Virus record (IMG/VR): IMGVR_UViG_3300020156_000050
Location: 1 to 42,155 of that record
Source: a virus
Direction: 5' to 3' (one strand)
DNA: 42,155 nucleotides
Shown: one piece after another, positions 2,299-36,837 of the stretch
Position numbering within the stretch: the stretch's first letter is position 1
How the letters are laid out: each line of letters opens with the position of its first letter
Made by a program: the position numbers and the translations under genes
The notes under the pieces: model-generated
Databases searched by the model: none
Told to the model about the DNA's origin: nothing
Seen by the model: the letters and a program-made list of their open reading frames with translations, nothing else

Positions 2299-3237
2299 TC
2301 AGACGGCCGGCTTGCCAGCGTCGATCGCAGGGGCCGGGTTGTAGTTCTCCACGGTGATGTGCCCCGGCTCGAGCGAGCTGTCCAGGAGGCGCAGGCTCGG
2401 GAAGGGGTCTACCTTGAGCGTAGCGCGTACGGGCTCAGCGGTCAGGGCCTGCCCGAGCTGTTCCCGTGCAGCGGCCAGCTGATTGGCGTAGACGTGCACG
2501 TCGCCGGCCGACCAGACCAGGCGAGCCGCGGAGACCTGGTGGCCAGAGACGAGGGTCAGCTCGCGGGCCACGAGGTGGGCTAGCACGCTGGCCTGGAAGA
2601 GGTCGAACGGCACCCCCAGCATCATGTCGGCCGAGCGCTGGTAGACGTGCAGGTGGAGCTGGTCGTACTTCGGGCCACGGAGGCTGAACTGGAACAGGAC
2701 CATGCAGGGCTCGAGCGCCATGTCGCGGAGCTCGGGGACCGACCAGAGCGAGATGACGGCCCTGCGGGTGTCGGGCGCGTCCAGCAGGCGCTTGACCACC
2801 TCGGTCAGCTGGTCGACCCCCGCAGCCGGCTGGTCGATGTCATCCCAGGGGTGCGGGGCCTGCAGGCGCGAGCCGCCGGCGTCGCGGTACTGAGCGCCGT
2901 AGGTCGGTCCGATGTCACCGTCCTTGTTGGCCCACAGGCTCCAGAGGTCGGCCATCGCGGGCGACCACTGGCGCAGGTGGTGGACGCTGGTCGAGCCGGT
3001 CAGCATCCACATGAACTCGCGGAGCGCCATCTTCCAGGGCACCCGCTTGGACGTGATGAGGGCCAGCCGGCCGCCGCTGAGGTCGTACTCCAGGTGCGGG
3101 GGCGCGAAGACGCTCATGGTGCCCGTGCCGGTGCGGTCGCGCCGGGGCTCACCGTCGTTGACCACCAGGGCCAGCAGGTTCTCGAAGGTGAAGTCCGCGT
3201 TGACGTGCTGGGCGAGCTCGCCGTAGGTCATGCTCAT
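2299..3237 (-). CDS. Thymidylate synthase-family enzyme, predicted dCMP C5-methyl or hydroxymethyltransferase
   Basis: 312 residues covering the full TS fold. Conserved TS positions are present: R35 (DRTGTGT), E74, W102, Y113 (GPTYG), nucleophile C178 in LEPCMVLFQF, R201 and D204 in YQRSADMMLG, and H248/Y250 in GDVHVYAN. The position equal to E. coli TS Asn177, which recognises the uracil face, is Asp212 (GVPFDLFQ). In T4 dCMP hydroxymethylase this position is Asp, and E. coli TS N177D acts on dCMP; the residue therefore predicts dCMP as substrate. The His after the catalytic Cys is Met here. A DHFR gene lies about 0.5 kb upstream in the same run, which fits a methyl transfer that makes dihydrofolate. 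The start overlaps the preceding stop as TGATG. An ordinary TS with an atypical residue remains possible. Confidence 0.88.
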   Translation of the reverse strand: MSMTYGELAQHVNADFTFENLLALVVNDGEPRRDRTGTGTMSVFAPPHLEYDLSGGRLALITSKRVPWKMALREFMWMLTGSTSVHHLRQWSPAMADLWSLWANKDGDIGPTYGAQYRDAGGSRLQAPHPWDDIDQPAAGVDQLTEVVKRLLDAPDTRRAVISLWSVPELRDMALEPCMVLFQFSLRGPKYDQLHLHVYQRSADMMLGVPFDLFQASVLAHLVARELTLVSGHQVSAARLVWSAGDVHVYANQLAAAREQLGQALTAEPVRATLKVDPFPSLRLLDSSLEPGHITVENYNPAPAIDAGKPAV

Positions 3238-3500
3238 CAGAAACCGTCCCTCGGAGCGGGCGCGTTCAGCGCGGCGATGAGGCCAGCGCGGGTGCGCTCG
3301 CCGGAGAGGCCCAGACGGTCAGCGTCCTCCCAGGCCTTCTTGAACGCGGCGATCTGGGCGCGCGTGGGCTGGACCGGGACGGGGGTCAGGGTGACGGTGC
3401 CGTCCGGGGCGGGCCTGCCGATCGTGTACTCACGGGTCGGCCCGCCGGCCGGGTCACGCAGGGCAACCCGGTCGGTGGTGAAGACGAGAGTGGCCGTCAC
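3237..3500 (-). CDS. Hypothetical protein
   Basis: 87 residues: a beta-rich N-terminal half (VTATLVFTTDRVALRD) and a helical C-terminal half. The GTG at 3500 overlaps the upstream stop as GTGA and is preferred to the longer in-frame start at 3542. It sits between DHFR and the TS-like gene and is coupled to both sides, so a role in the same pathway is possible but unproven. Confidence 0.65.
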   Translation of the reverse strand: MTATLVFTTDRVALRDPAGGPTREYTIGRPAPDGTVTLTPVPVQPTRAQIAAFKKAWEDADRLGLSGERTRAGLIAALNAPAPRDGF

Positions 3501-3790
3501 GCGAAGACCTCCTTGACGGGGCCCCAGAACTGCTCGAGCCACTCGCGGGAGTGGGTGCCGTACTCGGGGCTGTGGAAGTCGCCCGCGGGGGTCAGGTCGT
3601 GGCGATCGCCGTCATCATCGATGAGGGCGACCAGCTTGGGGCCCGCCGGCGGGACGATCTGCTTGGACAGGTTCGCCGCCTCCATGGTGCGGGCGACGAT
3701 GATCGTCTTGGCCTGGCTGTCGCTGAAGCCGAGGGCGACGAGGCCACTCAGCTCGGCCGCGGCGGTGTCGGCGATGGGCGTGGTGCTCAC
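3497..3790 (-). CDS. Hypothetical protein
   Basis: 97 residues. The GTG start forms a GTGA overlap with the DHFR stop, so the two are translated together. A helical N-terminal half (LVALGFSDSQAKTIIVARTM) is followed by a more polar region ending EWLEQFWGPVKEVFA. No family recognised. Confidence 0.65.
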   Translation of the reverse strand: MSTTPIADTAAAELSGLVALGFSDSQAKTIIVARTMEAANLSKQIVPPAGPKLVALIDDDGDRHDLTPAGDFHSPEYGTHSREWLEQFWGPVKEVFA

Positions 3791-4359
3791 TTGGTGTTCC
3801 TCTCGAAGGTGGTGACAATCGTCCCGAAGTCCAGGACGGAGGTGGAGACCGAGCGGAAGCCGTCGAAGGCCCCCGCGCTGGGTGCGGGCACGTCGGCCTG
3901 CGGGTAGCGCCCCCTGACGCGGGACACCACGAGCCGGTCGACCACGGGGCCGAAGAGCTCGATGACCGAGCGGCCGCCGATGACGGCGACGCCGGCAGGC
4001 TTGTCGAACCAGCGGGGCGCCTCGAAGAGGAGGTCGCTGGCGATGCCCGGGGTGGCGACCCACGGGATGCCCTGAATCTGCAGGCCGGAGGTCTTGTCGT
4101 GGACGGAGTGGGGGTCGCTGGTCAGGACGACCAGCGGGCGCTCCCGAGTCGACTCGCGCGACTTCAGGATGGCCGGCAGGGCCTCGTAGGTCTTGCGGCC
4201 CATCACGAGGACGCGGTCGCGGGTGAGCTCGCGGAAGTGGCGCAGGTCGTCGGGCGCGTGGTGCCACGGCAGGCCGGACGGGCGGGCGGTGTCGCCCATG
4301 ACGAACTCCCCGGCCCGACCAGGCGCCTCCGCCCAGATGGCGATGCTGTCAGTGGTCAT
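3787..4359 (-). CDS. Dihydrofolate reductase
   Basis: 190 residues with DHFR hallmarks: GLPWHHAPDD (residues 29-38, with D37 as the substrate-protonating acid and W32 of the Met20 loop), MGRKTYEALP (53-62, NADPH binding), and VAVIGGRSVIELF (124-136). It reduces dihydrofolate to tetrahydrofolate with NADPH. It is encoded in one coupled run with the TS-like gene, whose methyl transfer would generate dihydrofolate; a pure hydroxymethylase would not need it. Confidence 0.88.
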   Translation of the reverse strand: MTTDSIAIWAEAPGRAGEFVMGDTARPSGLPWHHAPDDLRHFRELTRDRVLVMGRKTYEALPAILKSRESTRERPLVVLTSDPHSVHDKTSGLQIQGIPWVATPGIASDLLFEAPRWFDKPAGVAVIGGRSVIELFGPVVDRLVVSRVRGRYPQADVPAPSAGAFDGFRSVSTSVLDFGTIVTTFERNTK

Positions 4360-9529: not shown

Positions 9530-9723
9530 TCGCGGAGCTCCTTCGTCGGCTCGATCCAGATGCGGCAGTCGCGGCACGCCACCCGCGTGCCGATGGTGGT
9601 GATCCCGTCCATGTCGATCCGCTGCAGGTGGTACAGCTTTAGCGCCGGGTTGAAGCACTTCGGGCACAGCCCATCCGGGGTGGGGCTGTCCTTGAAGTGC
9701 ACGTAGTGGTTGATCGCAGCCAT
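9526..9723 (-). CDS. Zinc-ribbon protein
   Basis: 65 residues with two CxxC pairs (LCPKCFN and VACRDCR) spaced about 30 residues apart, a typical small zinc ribbon. Coupled to DNA polymerase by TGATG. It may bind nucleic acid or a replication protein; no specific family named. Confidence 0.7.
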   Translation of the reverse strand: MAAINHYVHFKDSPTPDGLCPKCFNPALKLYHLQRIDMDGITTIGTRVACRDCRIWIEPTKELRE

Positions 9724-11594
9724 CAGAACGGCCTCTCGGTGAACAGGGGCGTGTCCAGGGCGGACTTGCCGGGCGGGTGGTAGTCGGGGCCGTGCCCCCA
9801 GGAGAAGCCGTACACGACGCCGTCGGAGTCGAGCTTCATCGAGCCGACCTGCGTCTCCATGGTCTCGCGGATCGCGCGGGCCACGTCCTCGGCGTCCTCG
9901 GTGGGGGCCTGGGCGATCAGCTCGTCGTGGACCGGCATGAGGAGGTACTCGCCGAGGCCACCGGTGAAGAGGGCCTCCATGGCGTTCTTGAGGACGTCGG
10001 CCGCCGTCGACTGGATCATGTAGTTGATGGCCGCGTAGGTGCGGTCGCGGTCCAGCGCCAGGATGCGGCCGGTCGGCGAGCGGAGCTCCATGCCGTTCCG
10101 CTTGGCGTCCCGCTGGAGCTTGTTGGAGTAGCGCTTGATCTCCGGGTAGACCCGGTTGTAGGCGCGTACGACCGCGGTCGACTGGGCGAGGCTGATGCCG
10201 AGCTTGGGGGCCAGGCCCTTCGCCCCGCCACCGTAGACGATGCCGAAGCCGGCGCCCTTCATGTGGGTACGGTTCTGCTTGGTGTACCCGGGGCCGTAGG
10301 CGAGCTCGGCGGTGTAGCCGTGGAGGTCCAGCCCGTTGAGGATGGCCTCCTTCATCCGCCTGATGTTGGCGAGCTCGGCCACCAGGCGCATCTCGATCTG
10401 GGCGTAGTCCGCGGAGATGATGTCCATCCCCGGGTCGGCCACGATCGCGCGGCGCACCTTCCAGTCGCCGGCCGGCAGCTGCTGGAGCGGCGGGTCCGAG
10501 ACGGCCATGCGCGAGGTGCGCGCCTCCAGCCCGGTGACGTTCGGGTGGATGCGCTGGGCCTCGTCCATCAGGTCGAGGAACTTGCCGAGGTAGGCGTCGG
10601 CGAAGCGGAACGACCGCTTGCCGAGGGCGATGTGGCGGGCGAGAGGGTTCGGGTTCTCGAAGCCCTCGATGTCCCCCCAGTACTCGTCCATGCCGGCCAG
10701 CGGGAGGAGGACCTCCTTGCCGACCTTGTAGCCGGTCTTGTTCCGCTCGATCAGCTCCGCGCCCGACTCCAGGAGGGCCCGCTCGACCTGCCTAGTCGAG
10801 TTGAGGTTCTCCAGGCCGTACTGCTCCCGCACGACGCGGAGGTGCTCCTCGCCCTCGCGGAGGAACTCCTCGCGCTGGCGGGCGGCGTAGCCGGCGTCGA
10901 TGCGGATACCCTTGCGGCGCATCAGGTTGAGGTAGCCCTGGATGGTGTGCTCGAACTGGGCGAGCTCCACCAGGAGCTTCTGGCGGACCAGCGGGGCCAG
11001 GGCCTCGTACAGGCGCGCGGTATAGATGACGTCCAGGCCGGCGTACCGGTTGTAGAGCTCGTCATCGATCGGGATGAGCGCCCAGCCGGTGTCCTTGGTG
11101 AACCCCAGCCGGCGGAAGTGGTCGTTCAGGCCGTCCGCGGTGTCGAGCGCGTTCTCGTCCACGTACTGCTCGGAGAGCGGCTTCAGCTTGTGGCCACCAC
11201 GGCGGTGGGGCTCGACCAGCTTCGACAGGATGATGGTGTCCATCACCCTGGCGGTCATCTCCTCGATGCGGATGCCCGCGACGCGGTTCAGGACCTGGAG
11301 GTCGTAGGCCGCGTTGTGCAGGAGCCAGCGCTTGTGCCGGCGGATGCACTCGGTGATGATGTCCCGGAAGACCGACCACTGGAGCACCCAGGCCTCCCGG
11401 GTGTCACCCACCTGGACCAGCCTGATGTTGAACGACCGGCCGAACACCTGCAGGCCTGAGGTCTCGGTGTCGAGCGCGAGCGGCGCCTCGGTCCTGGTGT
11501 TCAGCCAGGCGAGGAACTCGCGTCCGTCCTCCGGCGACTCGGGGATGCGGATGGTGCAGGTGTCGCCGTCCACGACGTGAGTAAGGGTCCTCAC
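9723..11594 (-). CDS. polA: DNA polymerase I-type replicative polymerase
   Basis: 623 residues with 3'-5' exonuclease and polymerase domains, no 5' nuclease. Exo motifs: LALDTETSGL (D42, E44), HNAAYDLQ (N94, D98), YAGLDV (Y184, D188). Polymerase motif A ISADYAQIEMR (D396), motif B R442-K446-F450-Y454 (MKGAGFGIVYGG), motif C PVHDELI (H556, D557). It is the phage replicase. If cytosine is modified, it must accept the modified triphosphate. GTG start overlaps the primase-helicase stop (GTGA). Confidence 0.95.
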   Translation of the reverse strand: MRTLTHVVDGDTCTIRIPESPEDGREFLAWLNTRTEAPLALDTETSGLQVFGRSFNIRLVQVGDTREAWVLQWSVFRDIITECIRRHKRWLLHNAAYDLQVLNRVAGIRIEEMTARVMDTIILSKLVEPHRRGGHKLKPLSEQYVDENALDTADGLNDHFRRLGFTKDTGWALIPIDDELYNRYAGLDVIYTARLYEALAPLVRQKLLVELAQFEHTIQGYLNLMRRKGIRIDAGYAARQREEFLREGEEHLRVVREQYGLENLNSTRQVERALLESGAELIERNKTGYKVGKEVLLPLAGMDEYWGDIEGFENPNPLARHIALGKRSFRFADAYLGKFLDLMDEAQRIHPNVTGLEARTSRMAVSDPPLQQLPAGDWKVRRAIVADPGMDIISADYAQIEMRLVAELANIRRMKEAILNGLDLHGYTAELAYGPGYTKQNRTHMKGAGFGIVYGGGAKGLAPKLGISLAQSTAVVRAYNRVYPEIKRYSNKLQRDAKRNGMELRSPTGRILALDRDRTYAAINYMIQSTAADVLKNAMEALFTGGLGEYLLMPVHDELIAQAPTEDAEDVARAIRETMETQVGSMKLDSDGVVYGFSWGHGPDYHPPGKSALDTPLFTERPF

Positions 11595-14163: not shown

Positions 14164-14352
14164 CTAGCGGAGCCCCTGCCCGAACATGGCCGAGGCCATC
14201 AGCAGGGCGGTCTGCTCCGCCGGCGGGGTCGCGAACTCCTTAGCCAGGAGGGCGTCGCGGAACGTGGCCGCGAGGTCGGCGAAGCTGTTCGCCGCCTCGA
14301 TGATGTCGAGGGGGTTCGGGCCCTGGAGCTCGCCCGGCTTCGGGGCGGCCAT
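14164..14352 (-). CDS. Hypothetical small helical protein
   Basis: 62 residues; central helix LDIIEAANSFADLAATFRDAL, then a second Ala-rich helix. Coupled to the preceding gene by TGATG. Unknown function. Confidence 0.66.
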   Translation of the reverse strand: MAAPKPGELQGPNPLDIIEAANSFADLAATFRDALLAKEFATPPAEQTALLMASAMFGQGLR

Positions 14353-17207: not shown

Positions 17208-17717
17208 CTAGTTGAGAACGGGCGCCGACGTGCTGTCGGCAGTGACCCAGTACGCTCCGCGCTCGGCGAAGTGCTGGGAGTAGAAGGCGCCCACGAGGGG
17301 CTGCTTGTCATCGAAGGTCTCGCCGCGGGCCTCGATCCTGGACCGGCGCACGGCCTGGTCGGCCTTCATGCCGAGGAGGAGCACGCCGTGGCGGGCGGCG
17401 AGGCGCTCCAGCCGGCGGGCCTGCCTGTCGGTGATCCGGGCACGGCCGCGGTAGATGCGGCCGTAGATGAGCTCGCTGAGGAACGAGCGGTCGATGTAGG
17501 TCGAGACGCCGGCCTCGCGGAAGGCGAGCGCGTCCAGGAGCTGGGCGCGGTAGTGCCGGTAGAGCGAGCCCGGCAGGCGGTGGTCGCTGGCGTCGTTGTG
17601 GATGACCCGGGGGACCGCCGTCCCGCCGTCGAGGTGGGCCTTGGCCATGCGCTGGACGAACGTGGTCTTGCCGGTGCCGTCCGCGCCCTCGATGAGGATG
17701 ATCTGTGCGTCGGTCAT
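17208..17717 (-). CDS. Deoxynucleoside monophosphate kinase (thymidylate kinase-like)
   Basis: 169 residues with P-loop EGADGTGKTTF (10-20), a DRS motif (TYIDRSFLSELIYG) like the DR(Y/H/S) of thymidylate kinases, and a lid-like Arg-rich segment (ARITDRQARRLERL). It phosphorylates dNMPs to dNDPs. Directly coupled (ATGA) to the dUTPase/dCTPase gene. In a cytosine-replacement scheme it would do the job of T4 gp1 on modified dCMP; otherwise it supports dTTP synthesis. Confidence 0.78.
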   Translation of the reverse strand: MTDAQIILIEGADGTGKTTFVQRMAKAHLDGGTAVPRVIHNDASDHRLPGSLYRHYRAQLLDALAFREAGVSTYIDRSFLSELIYGRIYRGRARITDRQARRLERLAARHGVLLLGMKADQAVRRSRIEARGETFDDKQPLVGAFYSQHFAERGAYWVTADSTSAPVLN

Positions 17718-18286
17718 GAGAAGGAGCCCTCCAGGTGGGTGCCGCCCGCGAACTCGGGCTTGGGGTAGAAGCGGCCGCGGGAGACACACATGACGCCGCC
17801 CCTGACCTCGTCGCTGCCCAGCCGCTGGCGGGTCGGGTAGCACTCGACCGCGTCGTCGTCAAGGGCCCGGTTGCACCCGGGACACTTGGTCGAGACGCCG
17901 TCGTAGCCGTCCTCCTGGCGCTTGACGTTCTTGGCGTGCTTGGCGTGGTAGCGCCGGCGCACCTCGTCGGCGTCGAGGCCGAGGACGAGGAAGTCGTTGA
18001 GGAGGAAGTGGAGCATGTCGATCGCCTCGCCACGGGCGGCCTCGAGGTTCACGAAGCGCTTGGTGGCCCAGGGCTTCCAGCCGGTCTCGGACTCGAGCTC
18101 GACCATCTCGTGGAGGAGCGCCTTGTGGTTCCACTGGATGAACTCGGTGACGGCCTCGGCGGCGATAGCACCCCCCGCGGGGATGCGCGCCTCGAGCAGG
18201 TCGAAGAGCACCGACGGGTGCATCGTGGGCATCTTCGTCTGGAGCTCGGACTGGGCGTCCAGGAGCTCCTGCAGGGTGTCGGTCAT
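17714..18286 (-). CDS. All-alpha dimeric dUTPase/dCTPase-family pyrophosphatase with zinc-finger tail
   Basis: 190 residues. Metal-binding HEMVELE (E60, E63), EAIDMLHFLLND (E87, D90), and the dimeric-dUTPase motif KN-x-x-RQ-x-x-GY (119-128) identify the all-alpha NTP pyrophosphatase clan that includes phage dUTPases and T4 dCTPase gp56. It would convert dUTP or dCTP to the monophosphate. The C-terminal 55 residues add CPGC (135-138) and further Cys residues, probably a zinc finger. Its message starts at TAGAAT eight bases from the ATG. Confidence 0.76.
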   Translation of the reverse strand: MTDTLQELLDAQSELQTKMPTMHPSVLFDLLEARIPAGGAIAAEAVTEFIQWNHKALLHEMVELESETGWKPWATKRFVNLEAARGEAIDMLHFLLNDFLVLGLDADEVRRRYHAKHAKNVKRQEDGYDGVSTKCPGCNRALDDDAVECYPTRQRLGSDEVRGGVMCVSRGRFYPKPEFAGGTHLEGSFS

Positions 18287-35643: not shown

Positions 35644-36837
35644 TCACGCGGTGAGCGTCAGCTTCACGAACGCGGTCGGACGGTACACCGCGAGGAGGAT
35701 GCGCTCCTCGGCCCGCAGGGCCACGCGGTTGTACTTGAAGTCGTCCTCGTTCGAGTTGGTCGAGTCGACCTGGATGCCACCCTTGCGGAACAGCTGGGCC
35801 GCCGTGCCGAACGCGCCGACCAGGACGGTGCCCTGGGCGATCGCGGGGGTCACGATGGTGCTGACGCCCCACAGCGGGGGGTTGCCGCCGGCGAACGGGC
35901 CGCCAGCGTAGTAGCGCTCGTCGCCGTCCTTCGCGAGGCGGAGGACCTCGTAGTCGGCCGGGTTGATGACGATGCCGTCAGCCGTCTCCTGCGCCGACCC
36001 GGTCGAGACCATGGTCAGGGCGTGGAAGATGGCGTCGAAGCCCTTCTGAGGCGTGTAGCCCGCGGAGGTCGCGTAGGTCTGGAGACCCGAGCGGTTCAGG
36101 ATACCGCGCAGGTTCGGGGCGGTACCCGAGCCGTTGAGGATCTGGTCCTCCTCGACCACCACGAGGCGGCCGACGAGCTGCGAGTTGATGACCGAGACCA
36201 GGTAGTCGGTGTCGCTCATGGCCTCGTCGGAGACCTTGGTGATGACCGCGATCTTCGACAGCGCCTCGGTGACCGGGCTGAAGTTGAAGTGGATCTGAGG
36301 CTTCAGACCCTCTTCGGCGACGGCCGCGGGCTCACCCTCGACCGCACCCTGCACCCAGTAGGTGAGGCTGGTGTTCTGCATCGCGCCCTGGCCGAGCAGG
36401 TTCGCGATGGTCAGGCGGCGCAGCGGGGTCGCGTAGACGCCACCGTACTGCACCTTGCCGTTGCCGTCCACCGTGTTGGTGTCGGTCGGCGCCTTGAACT
36501 CCGGAGCCGACGCGGTGCGCTGGCCCTGGCCCTTGAGGAACGCGGCCTGCGCGCCGGACTTGACGAAGTGCTCGCCGAGCGTGGCGGCCTTGGCGCCCGA
36601 GGGGGCGTCGGCCGAGTCGGTGACCTCGCCGGCCCCGCCCAGGTCGGCGACGGCCTGCATCAGCTTGGCGTTCTTCTCGCCGCGCTCGATGATGCCCTTG
36701 AGCTCGACCGCGCGGGCCGAGTCCTTCTCGATGTCAGCGGCTTCGGCGTCCGTGAGCTCACGGTTGGACGCCTTCACGCCCGCGACGATGGCGCTGAGCT
36801 TGGCCTGGATGGCGGCCAGTTCTGCCTTGGGGTCCAT
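35644..36837 (-). CDS. Major capsid protein (HK97 fold)
   Basis: 397 residues. Residues 1-~100 form a helical, charged delta-like scaffold (ADIEKDSARAVELKGIIERG) likely removed by the protease; the remainder has HK97 features, including LTYWVQGAVEGEPAAVAEEG (E-loop/N-arm region), a long spine helix region (SDEAMSDTDYLVSVINSQL) and AYRPTAFVKLTL at the end. GGGGAG precedes the ATG. Confidence 0.92.
   Translation of the reverse strand: MDPKAELAAIQAKLSAIVAGVKASNRELTDAEAADIEKDSARAVELKGIIERGEKNAKLMQAVADLGGAGEVTDSADAPSGAKAATLGEHFVKSGAQAAFLKGQGQRTASAPEFKAPTDTNTVDGNGKVQYGGVYATPLRRLTIANLLGQGAMQNTSLTYWVQGAVEGEPAAVAEEGLKPQIHFNFSPVTEALSKIAVITKVSDEAMSDTDYLVSVINSQLVGRLVVVEEDQILNGSGTAPNLRGILNRSGLQTYATSAGYTPQKGFDAIFHALTMVSTGSAQETADGIVINPADYEVLRLAKDGDERYYAGGPFAGGNPPLWGVSTIVTPAIAQGTVLVGAFGTAAQLFRKGGIQVDSTNSNEDDFKYNRVALRAEERILLAVYRPTAFVKLTLTA

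Follow-up and report, generated by a model that had tools for sequence, protein, structure and literature searches.

Several members of the thymidylate synthase (TS) family act on cytosine nucleotides, and one active-site position accompanies this choice of substrate. In the portion of PMC5175136 consulted, an Asp is common to MilA, BcmA and T4 gp42, all users of cytosine nucleotides, while Asn is found in TS and in dUMP hydroxymethylase. The N177D change is cited in PMC8670742 as redirecting TS to dCMP instead of dUMP, the product being 5-methyl-dCMP; across the 433 TS sequences compared there, no positions separate contigs with modified cytosine from others better than 177 and 147. The order of events in T4, as outlined in part of PMC6400193, runs from a dCTPase through the TS-like enzyme, a dNMP kinase and the host NDP kinase to the polymerase. 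Phage Xp12 has 5-methylcytosine (5mC) for every cytosine, according to an excerpt of PMC7653180, and the DNA of its relative AXL1 withstood all but 5 of 31 enzymes, according to an excerpt of PMC9206674.

Methyl and hydroxymethyl transfer are associated with different residues. In the part of PMC6400193 at hand, hydroxymethylases are recognised by an acidic residue (Asp or Glu) at -3 relative to the catalytic Cys, by Ser or Thr at -2 relative to the active-site Tyr, by Val in place of Trp83 and by the lack of a C-terminal tail. The TS features in the same text are Leu143, Trp83 and the tail, and dihydrofolate arises from TS chemistry only, hence the need for dihydrofolate reductase (DHFR).

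The window, i.e. the whole stretch of DNA analysed, is a 42,155-base virus record of Microbacterium phage type, belonging to cluster EB (Dismasvirus-type), with a GC content of 69%. Its first 25 kb matched 148 phage records, the best of which are Microbacterium phages with 83-85% identity across 80-82% of the query, and its gene order parallels that of phage Quenya. The gene of interest (2299..3237, minus strand, ATG start at position 3237) is named thymidylate synthase in GenBank and encodes a TS-family protein of 312 amino acids, predicted here to be a dCMP methylase. A small ORF (3237..3542, minus strand, phrog_31680) separates it from a gene for DHFR (3787..4359, minus strand, PF00186 E 1.1e-16). 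Also on the minus strand are a gene of the DNA polymerase I family (9723..11594), whose position and length agree with those of Quenya DNA polymerase I, a gene for a P-loop dNMP-kinase-like protein (17208..17717) and a PF08761 (dUTPase_2 family) gene homologous to T4 gp56 dCTPase/dUTPase (17714..18286). ARAGORN reported tRNA-Thr (14232-14319) and tRNA-Pro (36066-36160) on the plus strand, both opposite coding genes and both likely false positives.

The protein matches PF00303 over residues 18-307 (E 6e-66), and its AlphaFold2 model, built from a 43-sequence alignment, has a pLDDT of 93.2 and a pTM of 0.90. As predicted, the structure superposes on Mycobacterium tuberculosis ThyA (4fog_D) with Z 34.9 and an rmsd of 1.5 Å over 263/263 chain residues, C-terminal tail included, at 36% identity in the structure alignment; T4 gp42 is not among the 50 structure matches listed for the model, an absence that carries no weight. 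Alignment with E. coli ThyA (E. coli residue first) gives R21=R35, E58=E74, W80=W99, W83=W102, Y94=Y113, R126/R127=R158/R159, C146=C178, Q165=Q200, R166=R201, S167=S202, D169=D204, H207=H248 and Y209=Y250, and residues 299-312 align with the ThyA tail. The TS fold with its Cys nucleophile and phosphate-binding arginines is therefore present, while the two markers of a canonical dUMP-type TS, Asn177 and His147, are both absent. The first is replaced by Asp212 and the second by Met179, the sole non-canonical active-site residue besides Asp212. Further positions of interest are Glu176 (A144 in E. coli), Thr112 (V93), Leu175 (L143) and Trp102 (W83). The initial annotation had found all TS catalytic and phosphate-binding residues present, which holds for the set aligned above but not for His147. 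Its equation of Asp212 with E. coli Asn177 was borne out by the alignment, the same Asp was recovered in T4 gp42 once this was aligned, and its statement that N177D moves TS toward dCMP agrees with the part of PMC8670742 cited above.

The pair Asp/Met at positions 177/147 occurs in 13/13 distinct EB-type genomes or contigs examined (the window, Quenya, Eden, Franklin22, Shayna, Dismas, Didgeridoo, Elva, Armstrong, L004, L006, L007 and L046), a sample to be set against the ~97 Microbacterium records that carry the gene. This conservation, together with the Asp of T4 gp42, argues that the motif is not due to chance. dCMP is likely the substrate, whichever product is formed.

The product could be 5-hydroxymethyl-dCMP if water instead of hydride ended the reaction on dCMP, as in a dCMP hydroxymethylase. 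Asp212 is shared with T4 gp42, and two residues point the same way: Thr112, directly before Tyr113, occurs in 12/13 members of the EB-type group vs 1/75 Asn-type sequences, and Glu176, two residues before the Cys, in 13/13 vs 0/75. Both resemble the water-handling polar residues of hydroxymethylases, and a Ser/Thr and an acidic residue before the Cys are tied to hydroxymethylation in the available part of PMC6400193. However, the window protein has Leu175 three residues before the Cys and Pro two residues before Tyr113, and it keeps Trp83 (W102), Leu143 (L175) and the C-terminal tail, all features of hydride transfer, so that methylation is likelier than hydroxymethylation. Moreover, the hydroxymethylase signature is displayed by phages of cluster EA, which share the host, and no Pfam glycosyltransferase or carbamoyltransferase was found among the scanned window proteins, a scan that excludes the structural genes beyond 26379; such further modification enzymes are not a requirement of an Xp12-type pathway. 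As judged from these residues, methyl transfer is clearly favoured over hydroxymethyl transfer, and a hydroxymethylase appears doubtful; one of T4 type was rejected because the protein departs from the published signature at three places.

The occurrence of the Asp form beyond this group was explored by a motif scan of IMG/VR (QRSxDxxLGxPF-Asp), which returned 41 stretches, every one a TS homologue, vs at least 120 matches for the Asn form of the same motif, 80 of them listed and taken further. Among cellular genomes (one for each of 84,980 bacterial and archaeal species, Asp form alone counted), only 14 matches were found, eight of them encoding TS; all eight lie in contigs of metagenome-assembled genomes, and His147 is lost in seven. 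With duplicates and one fragment excluded, His147 is lost in 14/37 Asp-type vs 1/79 Asn-type IMG/VR sequences listed (Fisher p 1.8e-7, on related rows) and kept in the other 23 of the 37. When the link between Asp177 and a missing His147 was tested on independent pairs, the result was not significant (8 pairs on starred branches, ~3.2 in the same direction, 0 opposite, median p 0.25). Three T4-sized virus records of ~170 kb (L019, L038 and L043) encode a canonical-looking TS with Asp177 and a retained His147, and a PF08761 protein is present in both records searched for it (L019 and L038).

In a quick tree of 126 rows, from which columns 177 and 147 were excluded, Asp and Asn switch 17 times, and for at least 8 of these switches the branch is well supported. 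Sequences of EB type form a 13-row Asp clade (SH-aLRT 100), 12 of its rows carrying Met147 (99), and its nearest Asn-type relative is Arthrobacter phage Kardesai (Asn/His), whose sister position has a support of only 84. The EB enzyme is likely of separate origin from the T4 gp42 and AXL1 types, two very long branches whose placement in this tree is unreliable.

The surrounding genes offer a second line of evidence. The product of 17714-18286 matches PF08761 (E 4.6e-11), as T4 gp56 itself does, and matches gp56 by BLASTP (E 4e-13). Searched by tblastn, it finds 839 phage records, chiefly T4-like ones that label the gene dCTPase or dUTPase, and 67 records from Microbacterium; its GenBank relatives are named deoxyuridine triphosphatase. 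From this homology, it is a candidate for removing dCTP and supplying dCMP. Its stop overlaps the start of the kinase gene as ATGA. The kinase matches phrog_761, 'thymidylate kinase' (E 8e-24), its Pfam kinase matches staying under the cut-off, and the only records in which it turned up are 94 from Microbacterium and 4 from Curtobacterium. Among Microbacterium records, TS occurs in 97, DHFR in 94 and the kinase in 94, vs 67 for the dCTPase-like gene at E 1e-5. The DHFR gene next to the enzyme supports methyl transfer, an argument already put forward in the initial annotation; the gene does lie one small ORF away, but the argument is weaker than it looks and is tempered by Curtobacterium phage Shayna, which has the Asp-type enzyme, the pyrophosphohydrolase and the kinase with no annotated DHFR, so that host DHFR may suffice. 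More broadly, PF08761 or PF01503 occurs in 24/39 Asp-type contigs (PF08761 in 8, PF01503 in 17, both in one) vs 3/50 Asn-type contigs (0 and 3; Fisher p 1.3e-8), where the Asn-type contigs are the first 50 of the 80 loci, many Asp-type contigs are short, one lineage gives 9 of the 24 and the rows are related. This suggests that the pairing of a pyrophosphohydrolase with Asp-type TS is general.

The same neighbourhood can be read as that of a normal phage TS that uses dUMP and tolerates the Asp: the fold and all the transfer residues are kept, and neighbours annotated as dUTPase, thymidylate kinase and DHFR fit the supply of dTMP. This is improbable given the near absence of the Asp form from cellular TS (the eight true matches above), the additional loss of His147, the association with pyrophosphohydrolase genes, and the N177D and association data in the cited part of PMC8670742. 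On the same evidence, a plain TS with a neutral Asp was judged unlikely. Among other candidates, a C5-methyltransferase acting on DNA was rejected for lack of any PF00145 protein in the window, and no second thymidylate synthase of the ThyX type was found there.

If every cytosine is modified, there is no need to avoid C-rich restriction sites. Six-base palindromes were scored as observed/expected ratios under a maximal-order Markov model, with matched non-palindromes as the null and genome parts standing for clusters EC, ED2, EF and EG. Eight EB-type genomes have ratios of 0.93-1.00 (z -2.0 to +0.4) and Shayna, counted apart from these, one of 0.93, vs 0.46 in EC, 0.57, 0.62 and 0.69 in three EA phages, 0.51 in ED2, 0.75 in EE and 0.72 in EF (z -6.6 to -17.9). 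All-GC palindromes in EB stand at 0.98-1.06, and a 22-kb piece of AXL1 is much like EB (0.89 overall, 0.90 for all-GC). AT-rich palindromes are avoided in all 18 sequences tested and are not diagnostic. Since the EB genomes form one lineage, these data are supportive and not proof. They fit the earlier proposal of restriction as the selective pressure, to which there are two counterexamples: Hyperion, of cluster EG, does not avoid palindromes (0.95) and has no annotated TS in the two pieces examined, and EA phages avoid them strongly despite their hydroxymethylase signature. That 5-methyl-dCMP is deaminated to dTMP, as a detour to thymidylate instead of a DNA modification, recalls the 1982 Xp12 paper entitled 'A New Thymidylate Biosynthesis' (title cited in the part of PMC11946847 consulted) but is very improbable, the window containing no PF00383 dCMP deaminase and the missing avoidance of GC palindromes being left unexplained.

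Several observations on these genomes stand apart. Not one TGATCA occurs in the genomes of EB type and of Shayna that were counted (the window, L002, L188, L189, L190 and L196), against roughly 6-12 expected per genome; CTAG is also low, and most other palindromes are near expectation. Hyperion (L201, L204) encodes two MazG-like pyrophosphohydrolases and possibly carries another DNA modification. Avoidance of 6-base palindromes is very strong in most M. foliorum phages tested (L192, L194 and L195 of EA, L193 and L198 of EC and ED2). The 'thymidylate synthase' genes of EA phages (TeddyBear, MH045564, L195:35612-36379; Eleri, L192:34621-35385; Golden, L194:33891-34697; all on the minus strand) encode Asp at 177, Asp three residues before the Cys, a Ser-x-Tyr motif and no tail. 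The TeddyBear protein is 29% identical to T4 gp42 (E 7e-30), and its gene has a TAGT glycosyltransferase gene (PF20691) and one for a PRA-PH pyrophosphohydrolase beside it; 191 Microbacterium records match the EA type. EA phages are predicted from these genes to carry glycosylated 5-hydroxymethylcytosine, a modification that may be recent, partial or directed at something else.

Taken together, the gene probably encodes a dCMP methylase (5-methyl-dCMP synthase) that serves cytosine replacement in the phage DNA, and viruses of this group probably make DNA with methylated cytosine. In such a pathway, the gp56-like pyrophosphohydrolase would convert dCTP into dCMP and keep dCTP low. The Asp212 enzyme would bind dCMP and add the one-carbon unit of methylene-tetrahydrofolate, and hydride transfer would yield 5-methyl-dCMP and dihydrofolate, the latter being recycled by the phage DHFR. 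Phosphorylation by the kinase encoded next to the pyrophosphohydrolase and by host NDP kinase would then give 5-methyl-dCTP, which the phage polymerase would accept and put in place of cytosine; the resulting DNA could shield a genome of 69% GC from C-dependent restriction. The use of dCMP, the transfer of a methyl rather than a hydroxymethyl group and the modification of cytosine, all anticipated by the initial annotation, are each favoured, though none is proven, by independent sequence evidence: the residue association, the H147M change, the dCTPase and kinase genes, the kept hydride-transfer features and the lack of GC-palindrome avoidance. On the other side stand the GenBank name, a gene set (dUTPase_2, kinase, TS and DHFR) that could equally supply thymidylate, the hydroxymethylase-like Thr112 and Glu176, the many Asp-type sequences that keep His147, the smaller number of records with the dCTPase-like gene, Shayna, and the palindrome data of EG and EA.

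A broader proposal stands at about an even chance: essentially all C in cluster EB DNA (~1/3 of bases at 69% GC) would be 5mC, the work of a dCMP methylase with an origin in the canonical TS family apart from T4 gp42 and the Xp12-type enzymes. The Asp177 switch would have been repeated in phage TS, so that many 'thymidylate synthase' genes, those of T4-like kind in cluster EA among them, would be cytosine-modifying. The literature searched, subscription papers being outside its scope, yielded no account of DNA modification in phages of cluster EB, and modified DNA is unmentioned in the part of the cluster description consulted (PMC7302621). If the methylase reading is true, ~97 public Microbacterium phage records misname a dCMP methylase as 'thymidylate synthase', and a large teaching collection of isolates holds phages whose very GC-rich DNA has 5mC in place of every C. 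Xp12-type modification would extend to actinobacteriophages, and the comparison of methyl with hydroxymethyl chemistry would gain a second dCMP methylase, apparently independent and with its TS tail intact. Misnamed TS genes could be spotted by a cheap rule: Asp177, the more so if residue 147 is not His and a dCTPase gene is present.

Among known systems, canonical bacterial and phage ThyA share the fold and transfer residues of the window protein, which differs at Asn177 and His147. T4 gp42 dCMP hydroxymethylase shares the TS superfamily, Asp at 177 and a gp56-type dCTPase in the genome, but has Asp three residues before the Cys, Ser two before the Tyr, Val for Trp83 and no tail. The engineered N229D (L. 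casei) and N177D (E. coli) enzymes, as described in part of PMC8670742, differ from a canonical TS by this one substitution; the window enzyme is natural, adds Met147, Glu144 and Thr93 and lies within a dCTPase/kinase gene set. For the Xp12 dCMP methylase, the sequence compared was that of its relative AXL1 (gp63, a Bosavirus TS-like protein), which likewise has Asp at 177 and a replaced His147 (by Pro), with pyrophosphohydrolase and DHFR genes nearby. AXL1 differs in having Phe83, Asn143, no canonical tail and a dCMP deaminase gene. The window enzyme would work like the Xp12 dCMP methylase and the N177D/N229D laboratory mutants.
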